This document shows, piece by piece, positions 7,027 through 35,211 of a DNA stretch of 41,079 nucleotides. This DNA is from a virus: positions 1 through 41,079 of the IMG/VR virus record IMGVR_UViG_3300020202_000144; one strand, given 5' to 3'. The stretch's first letter is position 1; each line of letters begins with the position of its first letter. Both the position numbers and the translations under genes were made by a program. Below the pieces are notes generated by a model. The model was not told where the DNA came from, searched no databases, and saw nothing but the letters and a program-made list of their open reading frames with translations.

Positions 7027-7051
7027 GGTTAACCCACCACCTGTAAGCTAA

Positions 7052-7795: not shown

Positions 7796-7809
7796 GGTTT
7801 ATTCCTTGC

Positions 7810-8190: not shown

Positions 8191-8208
8191 AGTAAATCCT
8201 TGTGTTTA

Positions 8209-8247
8209 GACGGGGCGGGCCAGGCCTCCGCCTAGCCCAACCCCGTC
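8209..8247 (-). terminator. Hairpin between capsid and decoration genes (possible partial terminator)
   Basis: Seven-base arms (GACGGGG at 8209-8215 and CCCCGTC at 8241-8247) enclose an inner GGGC/GCCC pair, about 9 bases after the capsid stop. There is no T-run downstream on the minus strand, so it may act as an attenuator or an mRNA 3'-end stabiliser and not as a full terminator. Confidence 0.45.
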
Positions 8248-8255
8248 AAGGCCAA

Positions 8256-9476: not shown

Positions 9477-9494
9477 GACAGGTTGCTCCTGTCA
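9476..9494 (-). promoter_or_regulatory. Stem-loop enclosing the capsid ribosome-binding site
   Basis: TGACAGG at 9476-9482 pairs perfectly with CCTGTCA at 9488-9494 around a 5-base loop. On the mRNA the AGGAG sequence straddles stem and loop, and the A of the capsid start codon closes the stem. This could tune capsid translation. Confidence 0.5.
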
Positions 9495-9529
9495 GGCCCT
9501 CGTAAGGCAATGCTAAAAGGCTAAATTGA

Positions 9530-10549: not shown

Positions 10550-10568
10550 GTGGGATATCCTCTTTGAC

Positions 10569-10598
10569 TTGCGGAAAACCCGGGCCCATGCCTATAAC
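10569..10598 (+). promoter_or_regulatory. Candidate plus-strand promoter for the 93-aa zinc protein
   Basis: TTGCGG (10569-10574), an 18-base spacer and TATAAC (10593-10598). The ATG at 10605 is 7 bases after the -10 box, so the transcript would be leaderless. The -10 box overlaps a TAACCAG heptamer. The -35 match is weak. Confidence 0.4.
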
Positions 10599-10604
10599 CA
10601 GTGC

Positions 10605-10886
10605 ATGGACAGCCCGCGGGTTAAGGAGCTCCTGGCAAAGCTCGTTGACGCCATCCAGGAGGAAACCAGAAATCAACTACTTGCAGCCCTAGGCGGGCCC
10701 GCCAAGGCCGCTAGGCAGGCCCCGGCCGCGCCAGTGGCCAAGAAGGCCGTCAAGCGCGATATGTCCTGCATCGCCCCAGGCTGTAAGAGCCGCTCCAAGG
10801 GGCCACGCTTTCGCTTCCTGTGCGAAAAGCACCTAAAGGCCTCGTCCAAGGACGTGGAATCCTGGCGGGCCGCTAGGTCGGGATAA
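10605..10886 (+). CDS. Small basic zinc-finger protein on the opposite strand (93 aa)
   Basis: A 93-residue plus-strand gene inside the minus-strand head operon, in the gap between scaffold and portal. It has an N-terminal amphipathic helix (VKELLAKLVDAIQEE), an Ala/Pro/Lys linker, and a C-terminal Cys/His cluster (CIAPGCKSR ... LCEKH) that could bind one zinc. It looks like a small nucleic-acid-binding protein. I start it at 10605 and not at the upstream ATG because the candidate promoter ends 7 bases before. Its 3' end overlaps the portal 3' end by 14 bases. It is probably expressed apart from the late genes, perhaps in lysogeny; that is inference. Confidence 0.65.
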   Translation: MDSPRVKELLAKLVDAIQEETRNQLLAALGGPAKAARQAPAAPVAKKAVKRDMSCIAPGCKSRSKGPRFRFLCEKHLKASSKDVESWRAARSG

Positions 10887-12729: not shown

Positions 12730-12735
12730 GGAGCC

Positions 12736-12984
12736 TTACGACTTCTTGGTGAGGCGCGGAACCTGGCCATCGGGCCAGAGATCGGGATCGTCGTAGATCG
12801 TTACGCGAGGCTGCTCGGCCTCCGGCGTGGCCTTGAGCTTCTCAAGCTCTTCCGCCATGGCCGCATTCCACTCGGAGGCCAGGTCGGGAGCGTCTCGCTC
12901 GAGCTCGACCTCTCCCACCTTGACGCGGCGGAGGCCGTGGCTTTTCATGAGCGCCAGGAGGCGCTCCACCTCGTCAATCGTCAT
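12736..12984 (-). CDS. Small protein between terminase and portal (82 aa)
   Basis: An 82-residue acidic protein with an N-terminal helix (IDEVERLLALMKSHGL) and a second helix (WNAAMAEELEKLKATPEA). It overlaps the end of the terminase gene by 11 bases and ends 6 bases before portal, so it is co-translated with head genes. Function unknown; it may be a packaging or head-assembly accessory. Confidence 0.65.
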   Translation of the reverse strand: MTIDEVERLLALMKSHGLRRVKVGEVELERDAPDLASEWNAAMAEELEKLKATPEAEQPRVTIYDDPDLWPDGQVPRLTKKS

Positions 12985-14506
12985 TCCAAACCTCTTCTAA
13001 GTTATCGCGCTCCCACCAGTCAGTTTCGGCGTTGCGCTCGTATTGCTCGGCCAGGCGGGCCTCTTCCTGGGCCTCTGCCCAGGCGTAATAGGCCTCGGTG
13101 CCGCGCTTTGGCGCCTCAACCACCTGCCGGGTGTAGTGGTGGAAACAGTGACGCCAGAGGTAGACAAAGGCGTCGATCGCGTGATCAGGAAAGCCCTTGT
13201 CGATGTCCTTGCCGCGCTCGTCCCACTGCGCGTATTTCATCTGCCGCTCAAGATGGCTCCCGCGGAGCACCTTGATGCGGCCTGCCATGAGATCCGAGTT
13301 ACAGAGCTCGATGTGATCGCGCTTTTCCTGCTTCTCTGCCGGCTGGATATCGAACCCATACTCAGCGTTGAGAGACTCGATGATCGTCCTGCCGAGGCCG
13401 CCTCGGTCGCCGATCATGGCGTCGAATTGGCCGAAGATCTGCTCAGCCTTGCGCAACTCCCTGGCTATCTCGGAGACAACCAGGCCAGGCTGTGCGAAGC
13501 TGTAGACGTGGTACATCGTGTCGCACGTCTCGCTGTACGCCGCGACCTCGATGTCCGTGTCATCGTTAAAGCCTAGGTCGACCCCTAGGACGAAACGCCA
13601 CTCATGGCCATCGGGAAGGCCAAACGGGTTACCCTCGGACAGTTCCGGTAACCAAGAGTTGCGCTCATCGTTGTAGCGAAAGACGAAGCCGGAATCGTCG
13701 GCCACCCACTGGCCCAGGTACTCACGGCGCCAGATGGGATCATCGTCGTGCCACCGGTTGGCCTCCTTGTCTGCGAGGAAGCCTTGCCAGATGTGTGGCA
13801 TCGCCTGGTTATCAGAGGTATTCCAGGAGTGTCCCGACCAGGTAAACGGCCGTTCCCAGCCTTCGCGCGATCTCCAAGGCCTCGTAATCGCTGAGCCCTC
13901 GCGAGTCGCTTCGTAGAAAACGCCTGCCAGGATGGCACCCGGGGTGCCGGCCATGATCAGCGTACCGGCCCTGTCGTGCAGCGCAGGCTCGATGACCTGC
14001 TTTACGAGCTCATCGATGATGTCTGGCGGAAAGCTTTTGGACTCGTCCAGGACGACGACGTCATAGGGCTTGCCGCGGAGCTTATCGACGTCGTGGGCCG
14101 TTTCGGCCCCGGTGAGCTTGATGGAGCCGCCACGGGGGAATGTGGCTACCAGGTTGGTATTGTGGAAGTTGATACCAAGTTCCAACTCGGTATCTAGGTG
14201 TTTGAGCTCTTCCCAGATGAGGCTCTGGGCCGTTCCCCGCGTCATGGTGATGTAAACGCAGTTGGCGCGGGGCCTGGTTAGACAGGTGGTAACCAGGAGG
14301 GTGGTTAGCGCATACGTCTTACCCGCGCGACGGGGACAAAGCAGCGTCTTTTTGCGGCTGGGATCGTTCAGGAAGTCTAGCTGTTGCTGGAAGAGCCTGG
14401 AGCGGAGGAGCGAGGCCTTGCGTTCAGCTTCTTCGGCAGAGCCAGCCGCCAAATCCCTCTTCAGCCTGGCAAAGAGGGCATCTTGTACTTTCTTTTTCTT
14501 GGCCAC
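12974..14506 (-). CDS. terL: Terminase large subunit (510 aa)
   Basis: A 510-residue DNA-packaging ATPase/nuclease. Residues 57-64 form Walker A (CPRRAGKT), 148-156 Walker B (YDVVVLDES), and residues 308-315 (GVDLGFND) begin the RNase H-like nuclease domain. A further acidic site is near 370 (IGDRGG) and the last near 450 (HAIDAFVYLW). It pumps DNA through the portal and cuts concatemers. The start used is GTG at 14506 with no obvious Shine-Dalgarno sequence; it overlaps a small membrane-protein frame upstream. Length is normal for the family. Confidence 0.92.
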   Translation of the reverse strand: MAKKKKVQDALFARLKRDLAAGSAEEAERKASLLRSRLFQQQLDFLNDPSRKKTLLCPRRAGKTYALTTLLVTTCLTRPRANCVYITMTRGTAQSLIWEELKHLDTELELGINFHNTNLVATFPRGGSIKLTGAETAHDVDKLRGKPYDVVVLDESKSFPPDIIDELVKQVIEPALHDRAGTLIMAGTPGAILAGVFYEATREGSAITRPWRSREGWERPFTWSGHSWNTSDNQAMPHIWQGFLADKEANRWHDDDPIWRREYLGQWVADDSGFVFRYNDERNSWLPELSEGNPFGLPDGHEWRFVLGVDLGFNDDTDIEVAAYSETCDTMYHVYSFAQPGLVVSEIARELRKAEQIFGQFDAMIGDRGGLGRTIIESLNAEYGFDIQPAEKQEKRDHIELCNSDLMAGRIKVLRGSHLERQMKYAQWDERGKDIDKGFPDHAIDAFVYLWRHCFHHYTRQVVEAPKRGTEAYYAWAEAQEEARLAEQYERNAETDWWERDNLEEVWNDD

Positions 14507-14576
14507 TTAGCAGCCAAAGCACGCCCGTGCACCACCACAGGGCGGCCAGGAGAAAGCAGAGATAACCAAAGAGCAC
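14424..14576 (-). CDS. Possible small membrane protein overlapping terminase start (50 aa)
   Basis: A GTG-start frame of 50 codons whose start shares a base with the stop of the upstream gene (TAGTG). Residues 2-24 are strongly hydrophobic (FGYLCFLLAALWW), followed by a CPLC motif and a further Cys. It overlaps the terminase gene by 83 bases, which argues for caution. It could be a real short membrane protein or a chance frame. Confidence 0.35.
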   Translation of the reverse strand: MLFGYLCFLLAALWWCTGVLWLLSGQEKESTRCPLCQAEEGFGGWLCRRS

Positions 14577-14884
14577 TACTTCTTGGACTTGACGCGTTTC
14601 AGGGCGTCAGCCAGAGGCTCGCCGATAACAGCCTTCTCGTTGCGGCCCATCTCAAAGCCATCGGCGGCAGATTCGTCGGGGTAGTAATACAGGACGTTGC
14701 CCAGCGGAACGAATACGGCCTGCCCGGCGTGATCGCCGCGCGTATGACGAATAACCACCGAGCCGGCCTCGAGCCGGATATCCAGCGTTTCCTTGGTGCG
14801 GGCGTCGCCCATGCTAAAGCCGTACTCAACCCGGCTATCCCGAAGCTTCACAGCCTCGCGGAACCTAACCTGCTTCAGATTCAT
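14576..14884 (-). CDS. Hypothetical protein (102 aa)
   Basis: A 102-residue protein, mostly beta in its first two thirds (VEYGFSMGDARTKETLDIRL), with a short basic C-terminus (KRVKSKK). I chose the ATG at 14884, which overlaps the acetyltransferase end by 20 bases; upstream codons in this frame lie deeper in that gene. It sits in the packaging cluster just before terL. Family not recognised. Confidence 0.6.
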   Translation of the reverse strand: MNLKQVRFREAVKLRDSRVEYGFSMGDARTKETLDIRLEAGSVVIRHTRGDHAGQAVFVPLGNVLYYYPDESAADGFEMGRNEKAVIGEPLADALKRVKSKK

Positions 14885-15329
14885 CGGCTTCGGCCTTTCG
14901 GGATCGGGCCAGAACTGGCATCCAGACGGCCTGGCGGCGACCACGGAGCAGCTCGGCCACGATTGGCGTGCGATAGGTATAGAAAAACGGCTGTGAGACG
15001 TGAACGCCAGCGGCTCGGAGCAGTGCCTTAGCCACGCCCAGGCGCCGATACGGCTGCTTTACATACACGTAGTGGACGAGGGGCTTATCAAAGCCACGCT
15101 CTACACAGGCCCAGCCATAGATATCGCTCTTGGCCTCGTCTTCCCCTGGCACGTAGGCCACGTAAACCACGGAGCCGCGATCTAGAAGCTGCTGGATGGC
15201 TAGGCGATAGGCGTCGTAGTACAGGTTAAACGGCAGGAGCCCGGCTGCGTTGCTCGTCTTGAAGCTCTTGAGCCAGCTGGACATGACAAAAGGCATGTCG
15301 CGGCTCTCTGCCGGGCGGAAGGAGATCAC
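14865..15329 (-). CDS. GNAT-family acetyltransferase (154 aa)
   Basis: A 154-residue protein with a GNAT fold: N-terminal strand-helix (FRPAESRDMPFVMSSW), a central strand pair (VVYVAYVP; DIYGWACVER), and the acetyl-CoA pyrophosphate loop at about residues 90-102 (VKQPYRRLGVAKALL). It presumably transfers an acetyl group to an unknown amine or protein. GNAT-like genes are common near phage packaging genes. The GTG start directly abuts the upstream TAG stop. Confidence 0.75.
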   Translation of the reverse strand: MISFRPAESRDMPFVMSSWLKSFKTSNAAGLLPFNLYYDAYRLAIQQLLDRGSVVYVAYVPGEDEAKSDIYGWACVERGFDKPLVHYVYVKQPYRRLGVAKALLRAAGVHVSQPFFYTYRTPIVAELLRGRRQAVWMPVLARSRKAEADESEAG

Positions 15330-15515
15330 CTAAAACTCTTCAGTCTCAGCGTCGTCGGCCCTGGCAAAGGCCTCGGCAAAGAAGCGCTCGTCTTCGGCGT
15401 CAGCACAGGCGAGGCACAGGACAAAACTCTGCTCCTCGCCAGTCTCTGGATCCCAGCTGACAACGATCGTGCCATTGTCGCAGTTATCCGCGCCGCAGTT
15501 GTGACAACCACTCAT
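15330..15515 (-). CDS. Small zinc-binding protein (61 aa)
   Basis: A 61-residue acidic protein with Cys pairs CHNCGADNC near the start and CLACADAEDE at residues 34-37, a likely treble-clef or zinc-ribbon pair. It starts with an ATGA overlap on the upstream gene. The reading frame 1 base off is a shadow. It is one of several tiny zinc proteins here; function unknown. Confidence 0.65.
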   Translation of the reverse strand: MSGCHNCGADNCDNGTIVVSWDPETGEEQSFVLCLACADAEDERFFAEAFARADDAETEEF

Positions 15516-15844
15516 TCGTACTTTGTGAAGCCGGTTACCGTAGGCAGATGCTTGAAATACTCGCGCCTGGGCTCTGCCTGCTTTGGCTCCGGCTCCTTGC
15601 TCAGCGAGGCAAAGAACTGCTTACGGAGTTCCTGAAAGCAGGGCCGGCAAAAGTCCTTGCCGGTGCCCTCGACATCCAGGTACCAGTCCTCGTGGCGATA
15701 ATAGCCGCCGTCCAGAGTCCAACTGCCGTCTTTCTGCTGAGTCAGGTTGGAATCGTGCGTCATCAGTCGGCATTCCATTTCACGTCGGCAGCGATCGCAG
15801 GCGTGGTAACTGATGTGCACCTGGACGGTTTTTGTCAGCTTCAT
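15512..15844 (-). CDS. Zinc-binding hypothetical protein (110 aa)
   Basis: A 110-residue protein with two Cys pairs, CDRC at about residues 16-19 and CRPC at about 66-69, separated by a Trp/Tyr/Asp-rich beta segment. This is a two-part zinc site. The ATG at 15844 overlaps the upstream stop (ATGA), so the longer open frame is not used. It lies in the cluster upstream of terminase; function unknown. Confidence 0.65.
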   Translation of the reverse strand: MKLTKTVQVHISYHACDRCRREMECRLMTHDSNLTQQKDGSWTLDGGYYRHEDWYLDVEGTGKDFCRPCFQELRKQFFASLSKEPEPKQAEPRREYFKHLPTVTGFTKYE

Positions 15845-16275
15845 TTGGTTTCCAGCCTCGACACAAGCCGGGCCCGGTACTCTGGCGGCAACGTCCCGAA
15901 CCACTCCACCATCAGGTCGATCCGGCCCTCATGGCCCAGCTCATCGGCCTCGTCCCTGGCATCTTTCTCCAGGGCCCTGGCTTCCTTGAGCAGGCCAGAG
16001 ATAGCCCGGGCCAACTTGGTGGCCTCGGCCGTGTGGTGGGCGTCGTAGCTGTCTTTGGCGTTGATCTGGTAATCCAGCTTGTCTAGCTGGCGCCGGAGCT
16101 GGCGGAGGCTCTGCCCTGTGAGCTCGTCCAGGGATGGAGTACCCTCGCTCCTGGCTAACGGCTCTGTCGGGGCAACAAAGCTAGACTGGATTCCCTTGGC
16201 CCGGCACCGGCTGCAAGCGTCGCCGGAGTTATGGACTAGCTGATCACAGCCCGGCCCGGCACACCTGACGCTCAC
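15841..16275 (-). CDS. Zinc-ribbon and helical protein, possible small terminase (144 aa)
   Basis: A 144-residue protein beginning at GTG 16275, which overlaps the upstream stop as GTGA. Residues 5-25 hold four Cys (CAGPGC, CSRC). The rest is helical: two long helices (LRQLRRQLDKLDYQI; ATKLARAISGLLKEARALE) and a C-terminal segment MVEWFGTLPPEYRARLVSRL. A DNA-binding head plus oligomerising helices, together with a place upstream of terL, would suit a small terminase subunit, but no small terminase is otherwise recognisable and this is only a guess. Confidence 0.6.
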   Translation of the reverse strand: MSVRCAGPGCDQLVHNSGDACSRCRAKGIQSSFVAPTEPLARSEGTPSLDELTGQSLRQLRRQLDKLDYQINAKDSYDAHHTAEATKLARAISGLLKEARALEKDARDEADELGHEGRIDLMVEWFGTLPPEYRARLVSRLETK

Positions 16276-16589
16276 CCCAGAGCAGCCATGGCCGTGAACA
16301 GGCCGATCAGGGCCGTGGACTCGCGAACGGCTTTCCTGCGAGCCGGCTGGAAGAGGCAAACGCAAGGCTCAACGCTCACGCTCGTCCTAAACTCGCGAAA
16401 CGGCTTCTTGCCATAGCGCCTGGCCTGACCGTGGAGCGGCTCCGATCTGGTACGGTGCCAGACAACCTCGCCAGTACCGTTGCAACGGTTGCAGTCCAGT
16501 CTGGGGAGCTCCCCGGCGTGCCTGGCCCGGCGGATGTCCCACCAAAGCTCATTGTTCTCGGCGTCAAAGCTGGCTCGAGCGCGCTTCAA
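16272..16589 (-). CDS. Zinc-ribbon protein, first gene of late cluster (105 aa)
   Basis: A 105-residue basic protein with a DnaJ-like Cys motif CNRCNGTG (residues about 33-40) and a second Cys pair CVC further on. The start is TTG at 16589, chosen because AGGAGA lies 6 bases upstream on the minus strand; no ATG or GTG is placed as well. It is the first gene after the noncoding gap and so may head the late transcript. It might act in packaging or gene control; function unknown. Confidence 0.6.
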   Translation of the reverse strand: MKRARASFDAENNELWWDIRRARHAGELPRLDCNRCNGTGEVVWHRTRSEPLHGQARRYGKKPFREFRTSVSVEPCVCLFQPARRKAVRESTALIGLFTAMAALG

Positions 16590-16966
16590 TCGGCTTCTCC
16601 TGGTAATCCGACTGGTTACCTAGATCGATAACCAGTGGTGCGAGGCCTGTGCGTCCGCGTGGCCTGTGAGCAAAGGCGGGGCAGGCTGGCGCTATGCCAG
16701 CTATTCAATGCAGCCTTTTCAGGGGCCTGCCCCGAATTGGTTTTTGGGGATCCAGTAGCGCGGGGCTAGAGGCCCGAGGTACCCCACCCCCAAAGGGGGG
16801 GGTGATCGGGCCCCGTGCCCCACCCGGCCTCACCTGAACTAGGCCGGCTTTGGGTTGGTGCTCGGGTGAAAAAGCCTTGCTTTTGGTTCTTTCCTAAGCA
16901 AGAACGCTTGCTTAAGCCCAGAATCGGCCTTCGCCCCAGGATGGCCTATGTCCTACAGGGTACCGG
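16590..16966. other. Noncoding, hairpin-rich gap between early and late genes
   Basis: About 377 bases with no convincing gene. From left: two TAACCAG/CTGGTTA heptamers (16612-16618, 16629-16635); a 10-base inverted repeat CGGGGCAGGC (16677-16686) / GCCTGCCCCG (16725-16734) enclosing a smaller CTGGC-GCTAT-GCCAG hairpin; a CACCCCC-AAA-GGGGGGG hairpin near 16784-16803; AAAAGC-CTT-GCTTTT (16870-16884); and TAAGCAAG-AACG-CTTGCTTA (16895-16914). It is a candidate packaging site, late promoter region or secondary origin. Confidence 0.6.
16868..16884 (-). terminator. Short terminator-like hairpin
   Basis: On the minus strand AAAAGC-AAG-GCTTTT is followed by one more T and C. It lies downstream of the last early gene (16967-17179) and could end early transcription. 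The stem is short and AT-rich, so this is tentative. Confidence 0.35.
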
Positions 16967-17179
16967 TTAGCTCGAGTGCGGCTCTTTTCGGGACGTCGCA
17001 CACGCGGCCGCTGGCGGAGCCAGTTTCGCCGGAGCCAGTTTCGCCGGAGCCGCCAACTCATCTCCGTTGACAATCCGCATGGCTCGAGCGAAGCAAGCTT
17101 CGTGATAAGGCCCTTCAATGCTCTCCGTTAACGGCTCTCTGCAGAACGAAAAGATGCAGAGTTTCAGTGGCTTAGCCAT
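16967..17179 (-). CDS. Small Cys-rich protein with tandem repeat (70 aa)
   Basis: A 70-residue protein with a possible zinc site CIFSFC ... HEAC in its first 32 residues and an Ala/Pro/Lys tail containing the repeat LAPAK. The repeat comes from an exact 15-base tandem duplication (17016-17030 and 17031-17045). It is the last gene before the noncoding gap. Function unknown. Confidence 0.55.
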   Translation of the reverse strand: MAKPLKLCIFSFCREPLTESIEGPYHEACFARAMRIVNGDELAAPAKLAPAKLAPPAAACATSRKEPHSS

Positions 17180-17204
17180 GCGTGGGTTCTCTGCTTTTGT
17201 CGCG

Positions 17205-17253
17205 CTTCGCGCCTTACCGCTCGCGCGACTCTCGTTGCCCGCAGGGCGCGAAG
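17205..17253 (-). other. Inverted repeat between HNH gene and next gene
   Basis: Nine-base perfect arms, CTTCGCGCC (17205-17213) and GGCGCGAAG (17245-17253), form a strong stem just after the HNH stop. No T-run follows, so it could be a terminator of another kind or an mRNA-stabilising hairpin. Confidence 0.4.
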
Positions 17254-17255
17254 AC

Positions 17256-17639
17256 TCAAACTAATCCGCTAGTTATGCCAAGCACCGGCCCAAAACCACA
17301 TGTACAGCGGCCACGCCTTGTCTTGGCTAGGTGGCAACTGCCACAAAGCAGCTGGAGCACGTCTGGATATCCAGAAGCGATAACCCAGCGGTAAAAACAC
17401 CGATTGGCACCACGCCTTGAGCCACGGGCTCGCCTGTGCGCGGCTCCAGAACCATCGATATGGTCTAGGCTCAACTTGTCTGGGTCCGGCTCGGAGCAGC
17501 AAACGCAGCGGCCACCATAACCAGCATAGACAGCGTCGCGGAGGCGCCTGGTACGCTCGGCGGCACCCCGAGCATCGCACGGCCGACACTTACCCTTGCT
17601 GGACCGATTACTCGCGCCACAGCGAGGACATGGCCGCAT
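17256..17639 (-). CDS. HNH endonuclease with zinc pairs (127 aa)
   Basis: A 127-residue protein. An N-terminal zinc pair (CPRCGASNRSSKGKCRPC) is followed by the HNH/treble-clef core: CVCCSEPDPDKLSLDHIDG, in which LDH carries the catalytic His, then LCGSCHLAKT, in which the last His/Cys pair completes the fold. It is a DNA nuclease, either free-standing homing type or a packaging cofactor as in other phages that carry HNH genes near terminase. It is about 2.8 kb upstream of terL. Small size and lack of a DNA-recognition domain beyond the zinc pair are typical of phage HNH proteins. Confidence 0.8.
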   Translation of the reverse strand: MRPCPRCGASNRSSKGKCRPCDARGAAERTRRLRDAVYAGYGGRCVCCSEPDPDKLSLDHIDGSGAAHRRARGSRRGANRCFYRWVIASGYPDVLQLLCGSCHLAKTRRGRCTCGFGPVLGITSGLV

Positions 17640-27371: not shown

Positions 27372-28541
27372 ATGGCTAATCCCACTGGCTCGAGCATGGC
27401 CAGGGCGGCGCAGTGCCCCGCCTCTCACGCCTTGCCGCAGGTGCGCACCGAGTCCGGTGAGGCCGCCCAGAGAGGCCACGCTATCCATGACTATCTTTTC
27501 AACGTGTCAGAGCTCGGTGCCGAGGCGGCCCTGGCGAAGGTACCGGAGAAGTACAGAGCCGACTGCGAGCGCGTCGACCTGGAGAAGCTGCCGGTGATCC
27601 CGGCGAGCTACTCGGCGGAGGTGGCCTTTGTTCTGGATGTGGCGAGCGGTGCGTCGCGTGTGGTGGGCCAGAATATTGGCCGCAATTATCCTCCGTTGTC
27701 CAGTACAGAGGTGGCGCTCACACTGGATGTCGTGGCTCTTGATGGGGAGGACGGGGTATATCTCCTCGACTGGAAAACGGGACGTGGCCACATCCCGCCT
27801 GCTAAGCAAAATTGGCAGCTCAAAGCCGGAGCGGTAGCAGCCTGCAAGGCCTACGGCCGTACCACCGCCGTGGTTGGCATCGTCAAGATCGCAGAGGACG
27901 GCTCCGTGCACTACGACGAGGCCATGTACGATGCGATGGAGATTGATGCGGCCCTGAACGATCTCCAGCGAATCGTGGCCAGGGTTCTCGAGGCGGAGGT
28001 CGACGTTAAGAGCGGCCGTACGCCCAATGTGGCCACGGGGGCGGAGTGCCGCTGGTGCCCGGCCTTCGCGGCCTGCCCGGCGCAGATGGCCCTGGCTAAG
28101 GAGCTGGCAGTTAGCCCGGATAAGGCGCTCTTGCCGGTAAACAGGGCCGGCGAGCTTACGCCCTACGGGGCCAAGCTGGCCTATGACAAGGTGATCGCGG
28201 CCGAGACGCTGGTTAAGCGAGCCAAGGAGGCCTTGTATGCGTATGCGTCCCGATACCCCATTGAGCTTGGGGATGGGCGGGTGCTGGGCCCATACGACGA
28301 TCGACGTGAATACATCGACGGGGAAGTTGCCCACTCCGTTCTTGCTGAGAAGTTTGGGCCGGATGTGGCGAAGGAAGCGACAGAGCTTTCTACGTCGGCT
28401 GCTGCGATTGAGCGGGCTGTCAGGCCTCTCGCTGCACGAGGAAAGCTCGCGGCGCTCATGAAGGAGATCAAGGCGGCCGTTAAGGCCAGGGGCGGGGTGA
28501 GGGAGAAAGTTTACCAGACGATCCGAGAGTACAAGCCGTGA
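27372..28541 (+). CDS. Cas4/RecB-like exonuclease, DUF2800 type (389 aa)
   Basis: A 389-residue PD-(D/E)XK nuclease. The N-terminus has a lone Cys (AAQCPASHALPQ) and the typical GHAIHDYLF helix; the catalytic core is GVYLLDWKTGRGHIPPAKQN (D..K) with NWQLKAGAVAACK; the C-terminal cluster CRWCPAFAAC supplies three more Cys. One Cys plus three distal Cys is the Fe-S arrangement of Cas4 and AddB. It should make 3' single strands for the ERF protein. The gene starts 3 bases after its neighbour. Specific family name is from memory of the motif set. Confidence 0.8.
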   Translation: MANPTGSSMARAAQCPASHALPQVRTESGEAAQRGHAIHDYLFNVSELGAEAALAKVPEKYRADCERVDLEKLPVIPASYSAEVAFVLDVASGASRVVGQNIGRNYPPLSSTEVALTLDVVALDGEDGVYLLDWKTGRGHIPPAKQNWQLKAGAVAACKAYGRTTAVVGIVKIAEDGSVHYDEAMYDAMEIDAALNDLQRIVARVLEAEVDVKSGRTPNVATGAECRWCPAFAACPAQMALAKELAVSPDKALLPVNRAGELTPYGAKLAYDKVIAAETLVKRAKEALYAYASRYPIELGDGRVLGPYDDRREYIDGEVAHSVLAEKFGPDVAKEATELSTSAAAIERAVRPLAARGKLAALMKEIKAAVKARGGVREKVYQTIREYKP

Positions 28542-28831
28542 GTGAAATCGTCATCAGTAAGTCTGCTCTCGAGAGAGAGGTGGATGAGCTTCTCGAGGCG
28601 TACGGGAGGAGGCTGAGTCGCTGGTACTTCGGCGGAGTGATCGAAGGTGAGGAGGTGCGGGTGTCGCTTACGTACCGGCGCCAGGGAAACGAGGAAGTGC
28701 CCGGATTCGTCTGCCATCTGGTTATCGACGATGACGACAAAGGCCATCGTTACTACGTACTAGAGCTCGGCGATGGCACGGTAGTTACCTCGGAAGATTT
28801 CGACGCGGGGGTACACGAATGGCCGCTGTAG
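28538..28831 (+). CDS. Hypothetical protein (97 aa)
   Basis: A 97-residue acidic alpha/beta protein beginning at GTG with GTGA overlap on the nuclease stop. Residues 45-95 form strands (VRVSLTYRRQ; HRYYVLELGDGTVVTSE). It might be an accessory of the recombination module. Unrecognised. Confidence 0.55.
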   Translation: MSEIVISKSALEREVDELLEAYGRRLSRWYFGGVIEGEEVRVSLTYRRQGNEEVPGFVCHLVIDDDDKGHRYYVLELGDGTVVTSEDFDAGVHEWPL

Positions 28832-29094
28832 ATACGATTTCCGCTGGCGACGAGTTCGCTGGCCTCGTCGCCGGGCTTAGTGACAGGGAGTTTGCTCTCT
28901 ACGCGGCCAAGGCGATGACTGCCGCCATGGACGCGATCAAGAGCCGTAGCCCTCGAGCCCTGGCCGTTGTCCTGCACATCATGGATGTTATGACCACGGA
29001 CGGGAAGCGGCGTGGGTTCATTGATGGGAACGAATACAAGATGCTCGAGGAAGTGATCGGCGAATTCAACTTCCCGCCGGGCAAGGGGAACTGA
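28819..29094 (+). CDS. Hypothetical helical protein (91 aa)
   Basis: A 91-residue helical protein (DREFALYAAKAMTAAMDAIK; KMLEEVIGEF). It overlaps its upstream neighbour by 13 bases and the next start as TGATG. No recognised domain. Confidence 0.55.
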   Translation: MAAVDTISAGDEFAGLVAGLSDREFALYAAKAMTAAMDAIKSRSPRALAVVLHIMDVMTTDGKRRGFIDGNEYKMLEEVIGEFNFPPGKGN

Positions 29095-29291
29095 TGCGCG
29101 TCGTGGTTGAGTTTAACGAGGAGGAGCTCAAGGAGTTGGTTAACCGGCGTATGCAGGAGCTTGGGTATGCCGCGCTCGAGACGTCGATCTATACCACCCC
29201 GAGCCAGTTCGGGCTGAACGGGCCGGAGAAGTGGCGTACCAAGGCCGTGATCGTGGTTCAAACCACCGAGGCCGAGGGGATCTATCGGTGA
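29094..29291 (+). CDS. Hypothetical protein (65 aa)
   Basis: A 65-residue protein, one helix (FNEEELKELVNRRMQELG) followed by a short beta part. It starts at the TGATG junction. Unrecognised. Confidence 0.55.
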   Translation: MRVVVEFNEEELKELVNRRMQELGYAALETSIYTTPSQFGLNGPEKWRTKAVIVVQTTEAEGIYR

Positions 29292-29482
29292 TGGAGTTTA
29301 CCAACCACCGGCTCCGAGCTCTGCTGCGCATGCCCGGCAAGACGATGCCCGGGCTGGCAGCAGAGCTCCTTGAGGCCCGGCGGATGCTGGCGGAGTGGCT
29401 CCGGCATCTGGACGGTCAGAATCCACGCCACACCGGCCTTGCGCAGCATACGGTTAGCTTTCTGGGGGAGGACTGGGACTGA
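29291..29482 (+). CDS. Hypothetical helical protein (63 aa)
   Basis: A 63-residue basic/helical protein (LRALLRMPGKTMPGLAAELL, then RMLAEWLRHLDG). Start ATG 29291 overlaps the previous stop (TGATG). Unrecognised. Confidence 0.5.
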   Translation: MEFTNHRLRALLRMPGKTMPGLAAELLEARRMLAEWLRHLDGQNPRHTGLAQHTVSFLGEDWD

Positions 29483-29970
29483 TGCCGGGGCAATATCTGA
29501 CTACCGCGCAAGCTGCTGCTTTTCTTGGTTACAAAACCAAGGCCGGGCTATTGATGGCAATGGCCAAGGGCAAGATCAAGCCGGCCGGTCGCCGTGGCGG
29601 CACGGGTACTTACGTATGGTTGAAATCCGATCTTGACTGCTTCTTAACGGGTGGCGTAGGGTCGTTATATGGCAGGTCAGAAAACGGGCTGGAAACGCCA
29701 TGCGGGGTACGAGATCGAGGCGACTTCGACGCTGAAGGGGGTTTGGAGGACGCGGGACGGGAGGTGGTACGTCCGGGGCCACGCGACGGATCCCAAGACG
29801 GGGAAGCTCCGGGAGGTGAGCCGGTGCTTGTCGGTGGCATCCGCAAGCGACGCAAGGGCCTGGTTAGAGGACGGGCTCGAGCGGATTCGCACGGGCGGTC
29901 CTACAGCAACGAGGATGCGATTCGGGGAATACGCGAAATTGCTCTTCGCGCGAAAGGTGGAGCTCGGTGA
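29482..29970 (+). CDS. Excisionase-like MerR/HTH protein, frame overlaps integrase (up to 162 aa)
   Basis: A reading frame whose first 56 or so residues (YLTTAQAAAFLGYKTKAGL ... VWLKSDLDCFL) match the MerR-like helix-turn-helix of phage excisionases, with the wing in GRRGGTGTYVW. The frame stays open for 100 more codons across the integrase start at 29669, but that part is low-complexity, Gly/Arg rich and probably a by-product of overlap, unless the overlap is functional. Position just before int is standard for xis. The start has a TGATG junction with the upstream gene. Confidence 0.6.
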   Translation: MPGQYLTTAQAAAFLGYKTKAGLLMAMAKGKIKPAGRRGGTGTYVWLKSDLDCFLTGGVGSLYGRSENGLETPCGVRDRGDFDAEGGLEDAGREVVRPGPRDGSQDGEAPGGEPVLVGGIRKRRKGLVRGRARADSHGRSYSNEDAIRGIREIALRAKGGAR

Positions 29971-30874
29971 TCTGGCTTCGCTGAAGTCGGTAGAGACGTG
30001 GGAGTCGGTGCTTAACGAGCACCTGATGCCGTACTTCGGTGAGTATTACTTGGATGCGATTACCAAGTCGGACATTGCGAACTGGTTATCGATCCAGGCC
30101 AGGCTGGTAACCAGCAAGAAGTATAGTCCGAACTCGGTAAATAGTTGGCTGGCCAAGCTCAAGGTGATCATGGCCGCCGCGACGGATGAGTTTGACTTGG
30201 CCAAGGATCCGGCGCTAAGGGTCAAGCCGCTGGATGCCTCGACCTGGCGTACCTATACCCGGGAGGCTCCAAATGCGCTCCGAGCCGTTGACGTGCCCCG
30301 TTTTCTGCGAGAAATGCGCCTCAGCTTCCCCCAGCACTACGCATTCTGTGCGCTTGGGTTCGCTACTGGACTTCGCCCGAGCTCGTTGCGCCCGCTGCGG
30401 AGGATTGGCAGCCAAGCTGATCTTGACTGGGCCACGGGGATTCTTTGGGTGCGACGGAGCCACACGGTACGGCAAGAAGTGATGGAGAAGACAAAGACGG
30501 CCAGGGATCAGGAGATTGCGTTACCGCAGGAGATGCTGGAAATCCTGAAATGGCACGTCGATCGGTTGCCAAGGACGCGAAAAGACAGCGAGCTTTTGTT
30601 CCCGGGGAAGGGCGGTAGATTGCGGAGCCGCTCGTGCCTGGATAAACCGTTCGAGGCCGTAGCCAGGGCTATCGAGCTCAAGTACCCGGTGACGCCCAGG
30701 GCTATGCGGCGCACGTTCAAGGACTTGTGCCGGGCCGCGGCGGTGCAGGACGTGGTGTCAAAACAGGTGTCTGGACACGTCACGGACGAGATGCACGAGC
30801 ATTATCAGACGGTGCACCTGGATGAGCAGCGGCAGGCACTGGCCAAGGTGATCGAGCTGTTCAAGGCTGCCTAG
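29669..30874 (+). CDS. int: Tyrosine-type integrase (401 aa)
   Basis: A 401-residue site-specific recombinase. The N-terminal 130 residues carry the arm- and core-binding SAM-like domain (FGEYAKLLFARKVELGD). The catalytic domain has Arg236 (ATGLRPSSLRPL), a Lys-bearing beta hairpin, AMRRTF with Arg347/348 where HxxR is usual, GH at 369-370 and the nucleophile Tyr379 in MHEHYQTV. The usual His of HxxR is replaced by Pro/Ala (TPRAMRR). The start is ATG 29669, since an in-frame TAG lies 12 bases upstream. It should recombine attP at 33.5 kb with a host tRNA-Val. Confidence 0.9.
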   Translation: MAGQKTGWKRHAGYEIEATSTLKGVWRTRDGRWYVRGHATDPKTGKLREVSRCLSVASASDARAWLEDGLERIRTGGPTATRMRFGEYAKLLFARKVELGDLASLKSVETWESVLNEHLMPYFGEYYLDAITKSDIANWLSIQARLVTSKKYSPNSVNSWLAKLKVIMAAATDEFDLAKDPALRVKPLDASTWRTYTREAPNALRAVDVPRFLREMRLSFPQHYAFCALGFATGLRPSSLRPLRRIGSQADLDWATGILWVRRSHTVRQEVMEKTKTARDQEIALPQEMLEILKWHVDRLPRTRKDSELLFPGKGGRLRSRSCLDKPFEAVARAIELKYPVTPRAMRRTFKDLCRAAAVQDVVSKQVSGHVTDEMHEHYQTVHLDEQRQALAKVIELFKAA

Positions 30875-30882
30875 GAGGGGGT

Positions 30883-31083
30883 ATGTGGAAACCACTCGAG
30901 TTTGAAATGCCCCAAGAGCATGAGTACGTCTGTGCCAAGAACCATCGTTATAAGGGCCCGCCATGGAAAATGAATGTACAGGGCCATAACTTCTACGCCC
31001 AGACTGCGGATCTGTGTCCTCAGTGCGTGGTTGATATGTACAACAGTCATGCCGCGGCGAGCAAATGGCCTCCGAGAAAGTAG
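30883..31083 (+). CDS. Small zinc-binding protein (66 aa)
   Basis: A 66-residue protein with Cys at residue 17, a CPQC pair at 45-48, and several His. A good ribosome-binding site (GGAGGGGG) is 2 bases before the ATG. It immediately follows int. Function unknown; might bind DNA. Confidence 0.6.
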   Translation: MWKPLEFEMPQEHEYVCAKNHRYKGPPWKMNVQGHNFYAQTADLCPQCVVDMYNSHAAASKWPPRK

Positions 31084-31412
31084 ACAATTGTCAGCGTTGT
31101 AATCGGCCAGGGACGAAGCTAAAGGCCGACGGCAAATACCTGATGCGAGACAGGGTTGCCTGCGGGTGGTGCGACATCTGGCTGGATAGCGATGACGGCG
31201 TGGAGAGGAAAATTAGATATGCACTTGACTTCCGATGCGGTGACTGTGTCTGGAACGACCCAATCGGCACGGTTACGCTATGTTCACGCTGTCTGTCGTC
31301 CAGGATCTCGGTGTCCAGCGGGGAGTGGCCGGACGATTCCAAGGCTAGGTATCTCGGTTATCGCTCGGTCGAGGAAATGCGCCGGGCGCTAGACAAGGCT
31401 GTGGCCTCGTGA
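31065..31412 (+). CDS. Cys-rich zinc protein (115 aa)
   Basis: A 115-residue protein with four Cys pairs (CQRC, CGWC, CGDC, CSRC), likely two zinc ribbons. It overlaps the previous gene by 19 bases and has a C-terminal helical end (SVEEMRRALDKAV). Codon use is like the phage core. Function unknown; a small nucleic-acid-binding protein is likely. Confidence 0.6.
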   Translation: MASEKVDNCQRCNRPGTKLKADGKYLMRDRVACGWCDIWLDSDDGVERKIRYALDFRCGDCVWNDPIGTVTLCSRCLSSRISVSSGEWPDDSKARYLGYRSVEEMRRALDKAVAS

Positions 31413-31735
31413 ATGCCATTCATCCCGTTTTTTTGAGGTTTCGCATGACTCCCGGGAATAACCTTCGATTCCTTTCACTAGCGGGAATCCTTGCGGTTTC
31501 GGGCTGCGATCCGGACATCGCCGTGCGCGTGCCGTGCGGGTACAAGGCCGTGATTGAGTACCAGGGAGACACGCTCGTCGTGGACTACCGGCCGCAGGCT
31601 CCAGGCGACGTCGCCGGCAAGAAGCGCCGCGAGTACATGCATCAGCGGCCGAATGAGGACATGCACACGGACGGCGCCGGGGTCATCGTGCAGGAGTGCC
31701 TCGCCGCCCCCTCGAAGCCGGGAGGGACGCCGTGA
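31409..31735 (+). CDS. Predicted lipoprotein (108 aa)
   Basis: A 108-residue protein with a lipoprotein signal: hydrophobic segment LRFLSLAGILAVSGC, lipobox AVSGC. GTG start with GTGA overlap; a better-placed second start may be the ATG at 31445. The mature protein is hydrophilic with two more Cys. It opens the GTG/GTGA-linked cassette and could be an envelope protein expressed from the prophage (superinfection exclusion or fitness). Inferred. Confidence 0.6.
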   Translation: MNAIHPVFLRFRMTPGNNLRFLSLAGILAVSGCDPDIAVRVPCGYKAVIEYQGDTLVVDYRPQAPGDVAGKKRREYMHQRPNEDMHTDGAGVIVQECLAAPSKPGGTP

Positions 31736-32049
31736 GCGCCGTACCGAAGTGCATCGTGTGGTCGTACGAGTACGCCGAGGGCTTGCGGATGCGCCTGCTC
31801 ATCCGGCCCGACCAGGAATGGCACTTCTACCTGCACGACGAAAAGTTGGTCGGCGAGGAGGACCTCTACGACCCGGGCTCCGAGAAATGGGAGGTCATCG
31901 AGGCCGTGGAGTTCAACGCCGAGACCGCTCGACGCCTCGGGGCCGTGCTCACGTTCGAGGGTGGACTCGCCACCCCCACCCCCTCTCCGCCGGACAAGGC
32001 GCTCGAGAGCGCCGGTCCTGCGATCGGAGATCGCAAGGAGGGCGAGTGA
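31732..32049 (+). CDS. Cassette protein 2, hypothetical (105 aa)
   Basis: A 105-residue protein starting at GTG (GTGA overlap). Its first half is beta-rich (RMRLLIRPDQEWHFYLHDE) and its tail is Pro/Gly rich. Codons are strongly GC3-biased relative to neighbours upstream. Unrecognised. Confidence 0.55.
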   Translation: MSAVPKCIVWSYEYAEGLRMRLLIRPDQEWHFYLHDEKLVGEEDLYDPGSEKWEVIEAVEFNAETARRLGAVLTFEGGLATPTPSPPDKALESAGPAIGDRKEGE

Positions 32050-32312
32050 GCCGCCTCTGGAAAGTTAGGTACACGATCGAGATGGAGATGCCTGTCTACG
32101 CGGCGACGCAGGACGAGGCGCTCGACGTGGCGGAACGCTTCTGGCGGGACGACATGGCCCACTGCGACCCGGAGCCGGAGTTCTCGGCCCCGTTCCCCAT
32201 CAGCATCCGCTCGGAGTTCCCCGCGGACTGGACGGGCACGTTTGCCTGGGCGATGGACAAGGTGCGCCGGAACGTCGATGCGCTCGTCGCCACCCCCTCG
32301 GAGCCCAAGTGA
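32046..32312 (+). CDS. Cassette protein 3, hypothetical (88 aa)
   Basis: An 88-residue protein beginning at the GTG of a GTGA junction; the longer open frame in the track lies in other genes. Core WKVRYTIEMEMPVYAATQDE followed by Trp-rich segments. Unrecognised. Confidence 0.55.
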   Translation: MSRLWKVRYTIEMEMPVYAATQDEALDVAERFWRDDMAHCDPEPEFSAPFPISIRSEFPADWTGTFAWAMDKVRRNVDALVATPSEPK

Positions 32313-32656
32313 TCGACCTCAAGGCCATCCGGGAGCTACGAGATGACCCTCGTCTACGCGCCCCGGACGCGATGATGCGTGCGCTCATCTACATTGAGGA
32401 CACGGGCAAGCTCCTCGCCGAGGTCGAGCGCAAGGCCAGCGAGCTGGCCGACGCACGCCTCCGCCTGGAGCGGGCTGAGCAGGAGGCGTTGCGCCTGCGG
32501 GCCGAGCGAGACGAGACGCTGTCATATCTCGCGGAGTTCGTGGACATCCCCGAGGTGGCATGCCCGAATGCCCTCCGGTGCGACTGCTACGACCGGCGGT
32601 GCGTGAAGCTGTACGGCTTCCTGGCCCGCTTCGGAATTGCGAGCGACCCCAAGTGA
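32309..32656 (+). CDS. Cassette protein 4, coiled coil with Cys cluster (115 aa)
   Basis: A 115-residue protein: a coiled coil in the middle (KLLAEVERKASELADARLRL, then EQEALRLRAERDE) and a C-terminal Cys cluster (CPNALRCDCYDRRC). Starts at GTGA. Unrecognised; could bind metal. Confidence 0.55.
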   Translation: MIDLKAIRELRDDPRLRAPDAMMRALIYIEDTGKLLAEVERKASELADARLRLERAEQEALRLRAERDETLSYLAEFVDIPEVACPNALRCDCYDRRCVKLYGFLARFGIASDPK

Positions 32657-32730
32657 CCGCGCTGGCGGCGAAGGACAAGCCCGACAAGTCGGGCGGGCCT
32701 CGGGCCAAGGGCCCGAAGGAGGCGGCGTGA
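32653..32730 (+). CDS. Cassette micro-ORF (25 aa)
   Basis: A 25-codon frame bounded by GTGA junctions on both sides. It is Lys/Gly/Ala rich (KDKPDKSGGPRAKGPKEAA). It could be a translational bridge between its neighbours or a tiny peptide. Confidence 0.35.
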   Translation: MTALAAKDKPDKSGGPRAKGPKEAA

Positions 32731-32975
32731 GCGAGGACGAAATGCCTCCACCCTGCGGTCATCTCATGGAACCACGTCACTGGGCGAGCGAGGACCCTAT
32801 CGGACCGGCGCCCGTGACCTGCCCCGGTAGTAACCAACCCGTCCGCGTCGGCCAGGTCGGGCTCGGCTTCCTCAAGACTGTCTGCCACGTCTGCGGGGCC
32901 GAGTTTCCGGCAAGGGGATATCACCACGGGATGGTCCCGCCGCATGATGCCCCCGCGAAGGAGCCGAAGCCGTGA
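32727..32975 (+). CDS. Cassette zinc protein (82 aa)
   Basis: An 82-residue protein with CGH near residue 11, a lone Cys (VTCPGSN) and a CHVCGAEF pair near residue 54, a probable zinc ribbon. GTGA junctions at both ends. Unrecognised. Confidence 0.5.
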   Translation: MSEDEMPPPCGHLMEPRHWASEDPIGPAPVTCPGSNQPVRVGQVGLGFLKTVCHVCGAEFPARGYHHGMVPPHDAPAKEPKP

Positions 32976-33262
32976 GCGAGCGCACCCGGTACATCCCTGC
33001 GGCCGTTCGGATCAAGGCGCCGCCCGGCTGTGCGGAGGAGCGTCTCGTCGTCGATGTCCTCGCCGAGGAGGTCCGCATCTCGGTGCAGGCTCGGTACGAT
33101 GGCGAATCCTGGGGCCCGCGCTGCAACACTCTCGTCGCATCAATGGACGAAGCCCGCGCCCTCCGCGACGCGCTGAACGAGGCGCTCGACGGCAAGCCCA
33201 ACGCCGAAGCCCAGGCCGCGGCGAGGACGCGGCTGGGGGATGAGGAGAAGAGGGAGGGCTAG
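32972..33262 (+). CDS. Cassette protein, last of the GTGA chain (96 aa)
   Basis: A 96-residue protein, beta-rich first half (RIKAPPGCAEERLVVDVL) and helical second half (EARALRDALNEALDG). Starts at GTG of a GTGA junction. Unrecognised. Confidence 0.5.
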   Translation: MSERTRYIPAAVRIKAPPGCAEERLVVDVLAEEVRISVQARYDGESWGPRCNTLVASMDEARALRDALNEALDGKPNAEAQAAARTRLGDEEKREG

Positions 33263-33264
33263 AT

Positions 33265-33450
33265 ATGGAGACATTTGTGGTTGCCAAGAACATCAACGGG
33301 CAGTTAGTGGTATTGTGCCCGTGGTGTAAGAAGCGACATTTTCACGGAGCCCTGGGCGGCTTTGGGGTAAGAGCAGCGCACTGTGCCAGCGGTCCCGGCG
33401 TCGGGCGAGAATACGTTCTCATCGACGCACCCAAGCCACCACCCAAGTAA
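33265..33450 (+). CDS. Small zinc-knuckle protein (61 aa)
   Basis: A 61-residue protein with CPWCKKRHFH, a likely zinc site completed by a later Cys (HCASG). ATG at 33265 is 2 bases after the previous stop. It is the last gene before attP. Codon use is less GC-biased than in the cassette. Function unknown. Confidence 0.55.
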   Translation: METFVVAKNINGQLVVLCPWCKKRHFHGALGGFGVRAAHCASGPGVGREYVLIDAPKPPPK

Positions 33451-33453
33451 GCC
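33440..33453. repeat. attP arm repeat, left
   Basis: CACCCAAGTAAGCC, repeated with one change at 33630-33643 on the other side of the tRNA core. Candidate arm-type integrase site. Confidence 0.4.
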
Positions 33454-33532
33454 CCAATCAGCCCCGCCAAGTGGTTCAAACTTCGTTCAAGACGATCTAC
33501 GTAACCGGCCGAAACCATACATAGCCGGACGT

Positions 33533-33578
33533 CTTCACACGGAGGAAGTCGCTGGTTCGATCCCAGCATCGCCCACGA
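33533..33578 (+). other. attP: attP core: 3' half of a tRNA-Val(CAC) gene
   Basis: The sequence reads as a tRNA from the anticodon loop to the end: loop TTCACAC (33534-33540) with anticodon CAC, stem GGAGG, variable AAGTC, T-stem GCTGG, T-loop TTCGATC, T-stem CCAGC, acceptor ATCGCCC (33568-33574), discriminator A, then CGA. The 5' half is absent upstream, so it is no gene but an attachment core that restores the host tRNA on integration. Spurious frames across it encode the well-known tRNA-derived peptide MLGSNQRLP on the minus strand. Confidence 0.85.
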
Positions 33579-33629
33579 ATAAAACCGGCTAGTTAGAGAA
33601 CGGCCGAGATCAAGACTACCCAACCTTCC

Positions 33630-33643
33630 CACCCAAGTAGGCC
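33630..33643. repeat. attP arm repeat, right
   Basis: CACCCAAGTAGGCC, matching 33440-33453 with one mismatch, 52 bases right of the tRNA core. Confidence 0.4.
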
Positions 33644-33670
33644 ACCCTAAAGTTCCGGGAGTGACGGCCG

Positions 33671-33970
33671 ATGGTCTGGACCATGCGCATGGCCATGGTT
33701 CTAGTTCTAGCGGTTGGGTGCAGCGTGGGCGAGGGGGCCAGGTGCGAGGCCATGGCCAGGGCCATGTGCAAGCGGCAGCAGATTTGTGACAAGGAGAGGT
33801 ATGGCCAGGCGGGGGAGGACACGAGCTACTGCGAGTCGGTGCAATACGAGGCGTGCTCCAAGAGGCCGGTGAGGATGTTCAAACAGGAAGAGTGCGTAGC
33901 AGAGATCCGGGAGTGGAACTGTGAGTTTCTTGGGATGAGCGACAGGCTCCCGATGGAGTGTCAACCTTAG
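33671..33970 (+). CDS. Predicted lipoprotein, Cys rich (99 aa)
   Basis: A 99-residue protein with a lipoprotein signal (MAMVLVLAVGCS; lipobox LAVGC) and six further Cys in pairs (likely disulfides in the periplasm or at the cell surface). The gene lies immediately right of attP, so in a prophage it would sit at the opposite end from int. It converges with the minus-strand gene at its stop (4-base overlap). Could act in superinfection exclusion or lysogenic conversion; inferred. Confidence 0.6.
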   Translation: MVWTMRMAMVLVLAVGCSVGEGARCEAMARAMCKRQQICDKERYGQAGEDTSYCESVQYEACSKRPVRMFKQEECVAEIREWNCEFLGMSDRLPMECQP

Positions 33971-34203
33971 TCCGGCAGGATGATCTCCACGTCCTCGTAC
34001 TGCAAGGACTCGAGCCAGACGTCGTAGCAGCCGGCGCAGCGCCTGGTGGGTGGTCGACGCTCCACAGGCTCGTAGGGGCTCACCCAGAGCGCTAGGCCCA
34101 TTCCGGGCTCGTTGGTGCCCCCGCCGCAGTCGTCACAATACCCGCGGCCACAGTAGCGCTTGCTGGGCTTAGTAGGGAATTCCGTACTGTCGGGCGACTT
34201 CAC
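33967..34203 (-). CDS. Zinc-binding hypothetical protein (78 aa)
   Basis: A 78-residue protein with Cys pairs (YCGRGYCDDCGGG; RCAGCYDV), likely two half-sites of a zinc ribbon. No ATG exists in this frame near the start; GTG 34203 overlaps the protease gene by 35 bases. It is the last gene of the late unit. Function unknown. Confidence 0.5.
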   Translation of the reverse strand: MKSPDSTEFPTKPSKRYCGRGYCDDCGGGTNEPGMGLALWVSPYEPVERRPPTRRCAGCYDVWLESLQYEDVEIILPD

Positions 34204-34627
34204 GGAGCTTGTCCTCCTTGCCGTCGCCGGTGAGGTGCCACAGGATGATGTGGCCGAGCTCGTGGCCGAGCGACGTCCGGCTCAGATCCCAGCCGTTTTG
34301 GTAGACAACCCAGGTGAATTTCTGGGGCCAGACCGCCAGGCCGTAAATCTCCCTCGCTTCAAAAACGAGCTTGGGGACGAACGTCATACGAATCCCGCGC
34401 ACGGCCTCGCGGATATCCGACTCGCGATCGGGGTACGCGGTTAGCCAGAGGCGGATCGTGCGCTCGGTTTCCAGCTCAATCTCATCCCGCTGGATATCGA
34501 ACTTGGCCGGAAAAACCTCGAGCTCATGCTCGGTAATGAAGTACTTGGGGCCCTTGTTTCGCCTGGGGGCCGTGGCACAGGCCGCGCCGATGGCGATCAG
34601 CAGTAGGATAAGTAGAATAGTTTTCAT
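34169..34627 (-). CDS. Lipoprotein with HExxH metalloprotease motif (152 aa)
   Basis: A 152-residue protein. It starts MKTILLILLLIAIGAACAT, a lipoprotein signal with lipobox IGAAC, so it should be anchored in the envelope. Near residue 123 it has HELGHIILWH, the zinc-protease HExxH motif with a following His. The protein between is helical and aromatic. It is the next-to-last late gene after the spanins. It could degrade envelope or peptidoglycan-linked protein at lysis or act on the cell surface. The motif is seen; substrate is unknown. Confidence 0.7.
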   Translation of the reverse strand: MKTILLILLLIAIGAACATAPRRNKGPKYFITEHELEVFPAKFDIQRDEIELETERTIRLWLTAYPDRESDIREAVRGIRMTFVPKLVFEAREIYGLAVWPQKFTWVVYQNGWDLSRTSLGHELGHIILWHLTGDGKEDKLREVARQYGIPY

Positions 34628-34740
34628 GCTAAGCGTCCGTATGTCCGGCCGCACGCGTCGCAGGAGCCGAACCAAAGGCTAGTGGTTACTTTCCTGAGGC
34701 AGAGTCCTCGCTCCGCCTTGCAGCTGGGGCAGGCCCGCAC
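34624..34740 (-). CDS. Possible small zinc ribbon overlapping spanin gene (38 aa)
   Basis: A frame with CPSCKAERGLC ... CDAC, a neat zinc ribbon, running from within the outer spanin gene to an ATGA junction with the lipoprotease. GTG at 34740 is a possible start; a longer version from 34842 is also open. The clean Cys spacing and stop/start coupling favour a real gene, but overlap is extensive. Confidence 0.45.
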   Translation of the reverse strand: MRACPSCKAERGLCLRKVTTSLWFGSCDACGRTYGRLA

Positions 34741-34991
34741 AAGGCGTAGGCCTCGTTGGCCCAGCCGTGCATTGCCTCCAGGTACATCACCAGATTTCGC
34801 GTGCTTGGAAGATCGAGACACACGGCGAAGGGCGAGGGACACTCAGGAGGGCCCGTTACCGTCACCGGGCCCGGGCTTGGCGGAGCCTTTAACCGGCACA
34901 CCGTCAGCCTTTGGAGAGTCCTTGGTTTCGTCTGGCTTGAGCAACTGCTCAAGGCGAGTCCGAAGCAAATCGCCGTTATTAGTCGAGGCAA
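34686..34991 (-). CDS. Outer-membrane spanin lipoprotein, Rz1-like (101 aa)
   Basis: A 101-residue protein with lipobox LSSC (ITAICFGLALSSCSS) and a Pro-rich mature part (PPSPGPVTVTGPP), as in o-spanins. It starts inside the Rz-like gene in another frame and overlaps it by 149 bases, the embedded layout of Rz/Rz1. It joins the i-spanin to fuse the membranes at lysis. A few Cys (CPSP, CLD) may form disulfides. Assignment is by topology and architecture. Confidence 0.78.
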   Translation of the reverse strand: MPRLITAICFGLALSSCSSQTKPRTLQRLTVCRLKAPPSPGPVTVTGPPECPSPFAVCLDLPSTRNLVMYLEAMHGWANEAYALCGPAPAARRSEDSASGK

Positions 34992-35211
34992 GCAAACCCA
35001 TCAGTTGTCGGTTAGAGGAATCCTTAAACTTCAACGCCGCTTCGAGCCGTTGGATGGCCTCGTCGGCGTCTAGCTCGAGCCTGTCGATCTGAGACTCGGC
35101 GGAGCGCAGGTAGCGGCGGAGCTCGGAGGCTTCCTGCCGGTAGATGCGTCTGGCCCCGTAGAAGCCAGCTCCTAGTCCGGTAACCAGCGCCAGAAGGCTA
35201 AGCCACCACAT
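34843..35211 (-). CDS. Inner-membrane spanin, Rz-like (122 aa)
   Basis: A 122-residue protein: an N-terminal membrane anchor (LSLLALVTGLGAGFYG), then a long coiled coil (ELRRYLRSAESQIDRLELDA), then a polar Pro/Gly-rich end. This is i-spanin architecture. Its ATG overlaps the holin stop (TAATG). With the embedded lipoprotein downstream it spans the periplasm. Confidence 0.78.
   Translation of the reverse strand: MWWLSLLALVTGLGAGFYGARRIYRQEASELRRYLRSAESQIDRLELDADEAIQRLEAALKFKDSSNRQLMGLLASTNNGDLLRTRLEQLLKPDETKDSPKADGVPVKGSAKPGPGDGNGPS

Follow-up and report, generated by a model that had tools for sequence, protein, structure and literature searches.

In an uncultured temperate phage, the integrase gene and a candidate attachment site are separated by a tightly packed row of six, perhaps seven, small genes, whose GC content at third codon positions (GC3) is the highest in the phage. 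This block is probably a polycistronic module that entered the int-attP interval from a source of higher GC content, and that is expressed by read-through to yield accessory proteins whose translation would mostly be coupled at GTGA overlaps.

A gene row between integrase and an attP-like sequence

The window, meaning the whole stretch of DNA that was analysed, is the 41,079-base IMG/VR virus record IMGVR_UViG_3300020202_000144 and represents a podovirus-like phage. It carries virion-side genes for terminase, portal, major head protein and internal virion protein, together with genes for a DnaB-like helicase, an Erf annealing protein, an exonuclease and an endolysin. The gene for a tyrosine-recombinase integrase of 401 aa was located at 29669-30874 on the plus strand (PHROGs phrog_1, E 2.2e-40). 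A second IMG/VR record of 10.7 kb, L002 (IMGVR_UViG_3300020215_000402), is 99.99% identical to window positions 6807-17528 and is nearly the same phage.

On the other side of the block, at 33534-33575 on the plus strand, we identified the 3′ half of a tRNA-Val(CAC), running from the anticodon loop to the acceptor and composed, in order, of the anticodon loop, GGAGG, AAGTC, the T-stem GCTGG/CCAGC and ATCGCCCA. The same tRNA-Val 3′ end, again without a whole tRNA gene, occurs in two further phages, L003 and L009. From this likeness, we infer that the phage may integrate at 33534-33575, which would then be its attP core. The original prediction had placed the block between integrase and attP, and this position was borne out. 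In L003 and L009, attP and the integrase gene are about 130-200 bp apart and have nothing in between, compared with 2.65 kb in the window's phage, indicating that this interval need not hold additional genes. The candidate core is flanked by a 15-base direct repeat, CCACCCAAGTA(A/G)GCC, at 33439-33453 and 33629-33643 on the plus strand, the two copies being possible integrase arm sites. When 84,980 genomes were searched for a host carrying the tRNA-Val 3′ end, no match was obtained.

All genes of the row and its neighbours are on the plus strand. Upstream of the GC-rich block, in a stretch of low GC, lie genes for a small CxxC protein (30883-31083, 66 aa, GC3 0.61) and, as the immediate neighbour, a zinc-ribbon-like protein with eight cysteines (31065-31412, 115 aa, GC3 0.67). 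The block itself consists of genes for a predicted lipoprotein (31445-31735, 96 aa), an acidic small protein (31732-32049, 105 aa), a small protein with a 24-residue stretch resembling T7 gp2 (32046-32312, 88 aa), a probably helical protein with a Cys-rich C-terminus (32309-32656, 115 aa), a zinc-ribbon-like protein (32727-32975, 82 aa, GC3 0.75) and a last small protein (32972-33262, 96 aa, GC3 0.86), at whose stop codon the GC content falls. A frame of 25 codons at 32653-32730, which has no Shine-Dalgarno sequence, is a doubtful seventh gene. The downstream neighbour, encoding a CPWC zinc-finger-like protein (33265-33450, 61 aa), has an ordinary composition (GC3 0.63). The GC content of the block by codon position was 0.70/0.48/0.85, which fits real coding.

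Composition and borders of the block

Composition was analysed with a gene set from a simple custom caller and hand corrections, as opposed to a standard annotation. The GC3 of the block was 0.852 over 600 codons, while other windows of 600 codons had a mean of 0.745 (sd 0.027) and a maximum of 0.817. When GC3 was compared gene by gene, the block genes were also higher (Mann-Whitney P = 1.3e-4, or 1.7e-4 against small genes only), and permutation of the gene order gave P = 1.5e-4 for a run of seven genes this high. The block thus has a composition unlike that of the phage, as is looked for in a moron or lysogenic-conversion cassette. The total synonymous codon bias of the block (G = 113) was exceeded by other windows, which reached up to 157, indicating that the outlier property is GC3 and not whole codon preference. 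Therefore, the more GC-biased codon use that had been proposed holds for GC3, but total codon bias is not unique to the block.

In a free segment search, no GC segment of the window was stronger than 31501-33250, whose log-likelihood gain was 19 compared with 8 for the runner-up, and GC change-points were placed at 31501 and 33240-33260. The int-attP interval is accordingly a mosaic, with a GC content of 54.3% at 30875-31500, 68% at 31501-33262 and 58% at 33263-33970. Moreover, the dinucleotide delta* of the block was 0.127 against a mean of 0.069, a value reached by only 4 of 197 windows. These sharp borders, the near-extreme dinucleotide signature and the position beside the att site support the earlier suggestion that the block was captured from elsewhere. 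Because the source replicon was not found, this case for acquisition is one of composition. The module would have replaced DNA of the int-attP interval or been added to it, and its source may have been a host-like replicon or another phage of higher GC content. Immediately before the block, the stretch at 30875-31500 encodes two CxxC-rich small proteins at 54% GC, and its low GC suggests a second module that may have a different origin.

We also considered that the block might be native to the phage lineage, as an ordinary early or lysogeny operon whose high GC3 arose by chance or by local selection without recent acquisition. Chained small-gene operons are common among the phages related by their capsids, some of them abutting int, and the operon upstream of the block has three GTGA junctions of its own. 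However, the permutation result for the GC3 run (P about 0.00015), the sharpness of the GC change-points and the outlying dinucleotide signature all argue against a native origin, which we regard as unlikely. An assembly chimera of the metagenome contig would equally produce a GC-rich stretch, and a single record covers this part of the phage, the near-identical L002 spanning 6807-17528 only. Yet the lipoprotein frame crosses the left composition border unbroken and the right border coincides with a stop codon, the next gene starting 2 bases on, which makes such an artefact very improbable.

Relatives of the phage and of the block were also sought. The head protein matched 24 further IMG/VR records (29-45% identity), and these relatives share virion proteins, while the non-virion matches in the fetched pieces were the exonuclease (in L042 only) and an integrase match at 25% identity. 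No close relative of the phage was found, and none of the distant ones has the block. The protein encoded at 32046 gave no match in the full records of the relatives, in a search run without a positive control, and neither did the other block proteins in the fetched pieces. Since the remaining non-virion genes are mostly unshared as well, absence of the block from the relatives says little. Scans of block proteins by patterns, which detect close relatives only, returned no homologue from IMG/VR (n = 4) or from genome contigs (n = 1), and tblastn against phages (n = 6) returned none either; the proteins starting at 31732 and 32309 are among those with no homologue found. At the DNA level, the block matched nothing among phages and plasmids. 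The proposed search for the block in other genomes thus yielded no relative, at limited sensitivity.

Absence of a dispersed heptamer had been put forward as a further mark of the block. We assumed this heptamer to be CTGGTTA, the most over-represented 7-mer, with 35 copies of CTGGTTA/TAACCAG in the window against about 4 expected. It is indeed missing from the block, but with 1.6 copies expected this is not significant (P about 0.2), and we rejected the absence as a sign of foreign DNA. The copies often lie within CTGGTTACC or CTGGTTATCGATC, with the largest gap at 30108-35181, and could be repressor or stoperator-like sites. GGTAACC occurs in 29 copies in the window.

GTGA junctions and expression of the row

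Seven GTGA junctions had been listed, at 31409, 31732, 32046, 32309, 32653, 32727 and 32972, and all were present, each with a 4-base overlap with the preceding TGA stop. A seven-link chain of GTGA frames did not arise in any of 200 dinucleotide shuffles, which gave at most 4. The accompanying claim that seven genes start with GTG stood only in part: the words are in place, but the one at 31409 is probably not used and the one at 32653 opens the doubtful 25 codons. GTG starts were commoner in the block (6 of 7) than elsewhere (15 of 62; Fisher P = 0.0025).

For the lipoprotein, ATG 31445 is a more likely start than GTG 31409, given the Shine-Dalgarno sequence GAGGT (31435-31439) five bases upstream of the ATG and the normal, short N-region of the signal peptide that results. 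With this better start available, the GTGA at 31409 is probably incidental. Good Shine-Dalgarno sequences were found before 31732 (GGGAGG), 32046 and 32727 (GGAGG); those before 32309 and 32972 (GGAG) were weaker.

Further GTGA overlaps exist outside the block, upstream at 27151, 28538 and 29288, and there are three more on the other strand. In the relatives L026, L029, L038, L040 and L044, we counted 9 to 15 open frames, some of which are perhaps not genes, chained by ATGA, GTGA or TTGA overlaps, so 4-bp overlaps in succession are nothing unusual for these phages. As far as the overlaps are concerned, only the uniform GTG starts set the block apart. The integrase frame of L040 runs directly into its chain, the chain of L038 reaches up to the integrase, and small co-directional genes follow the integrase in L039. 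These int-linked operons share 4-bp overlaps, CxxC proteins and int adjacency with the block, but they mix ATGA and GTGA and show no sequence similarity to it. At L040:4620-13798, the chain after the integrase frame includes a frame of 806 codons that reads as glycosyltransferase-like.

Successive 4-bp stop-start overlaps, as expected of a translationally coupled operon, are present in the block, and overlap coupling is established for such bacterial gene pairs (PMC6728339). We propose that transcription of the block would come from the int operon upstream, by read-through, and that ribosomes terminating on a preceding stop could reach most starts at GTGA, aided by the internal Shine-Dalgarno sequences. 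Our search for sigma-70-like promoters at 28500-35000, with a consensus that may not be that of the host, found none, and the block's single terminator-like site lies on the minus strand. RNA structure predicted at 32640-32735 and 31395-31450 was no better than in shuffles.

Block products and their possible roles

The products would mostly be small soluble accessory proteins, non-essential to the phage, with the first probably exported as a lipoprotein. In that protein, counted from ATG 31445, a VSGC lipobox occupies residues 18-21 after a hydrophobic stretch, as identified by motif and not by a trained predictor. The block therefore does open with a predicted lipoprotein as proposed, though most likely from this ATG and not from the GTGA at 31409. 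The lipoprotein matched no known family, exclusion protein or defence protein in PHROGs, NCBIfam, PADLOC, Pfam or phage records. Neither Pfam nor NCBIfam gave any block protein a score above a curated cut-off, and PADLOC gave no defence match. The protein encoded at 32727 matched weakly to phrog_6601 (E 2.6e-5), a PHROGs family of unknown function. AlphaFold2 models made without an alignment had pLDDT values of 51.5 for the 32046 protein and 50.3 for the 31445 protein, and were not interpretable.

We examined the 32046 protein as a candidate T7 gp2-type RNA polymerase inhibitor. It resembles T7 gp2 in the 24-residue stretch, but PF16857 scored 24 bits against a Pfam cut-off of 27 and covered half of the profile only, and phmmer gave E 0.39. 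The same profile also gave sub-threshold hits in 5 of the 14 control genomes, and the candidate was rejected on these grounds.

Accessory genes are known to adjoin int or att sites in P4 and P2 elements and others (PMC9122126), and the block is similar to these slots in position, but it has no recognisable defence gene and shares no sequence with them. Likewise, the lysogeny modules of Streptococcus thermophilus phages contain genes for Ltp-type superinfection-exclusion lipoproteins (PMC3952083); there too a phage lipoprotein gene stands in the integration region, but no similarity to the block lipoprotein is detectable and the host type is different. These precedents, the lipobox protein placed first and the position adjoining attP would agree with a moron cassette in which the lipoprotein stops DNA entry of superinfecting phages, like Ltp of TP-J34, and the other genes are helpers. 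Against this, we found no likeness to known exclusion or defence proteins and recognised no promoter or terminator of its own, and the lipoprotein fold model is of low confidence, so that we consider this reading doubtful. Taken by itself, a superinfection-exclusion role of the lipoprotein is possible. The broader expectation that the block changes host properties or excludes phages gained nothing beyond this lipobox, as PADLOC, Pfam, NCBIfam and PHROGs gave no assignment. It is highly improbable that the row represents a novel exclusion or host-takeover system of several genes from an unsampled phage lineage, in which the exported lipoprotein, a gp2-like protein that binds RNA polymerase and helpers of the zinc-ribbon type would be made in a fixed ratio by serial GTG reinitiation.

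Accessory modules of this sort are a common kind of thing. The probably acquired module described here adds a further clear example of likely exchange of modules in an int-attP interval, with borders that can be measured, in a lineage without close cultured relatives. Its sequence promises no particular function, and since no relatives were detected for its genes, any function demonstrated for them would be new. Beyond attP, we observed a lipoprotein-like gene at 33671-33970, encoding a protein of nine cysteines with AVGC, and at 34169-34627, on the minus strand, a gene for a GAAC lipobox protein with an HELGH metallopeptidase motif.
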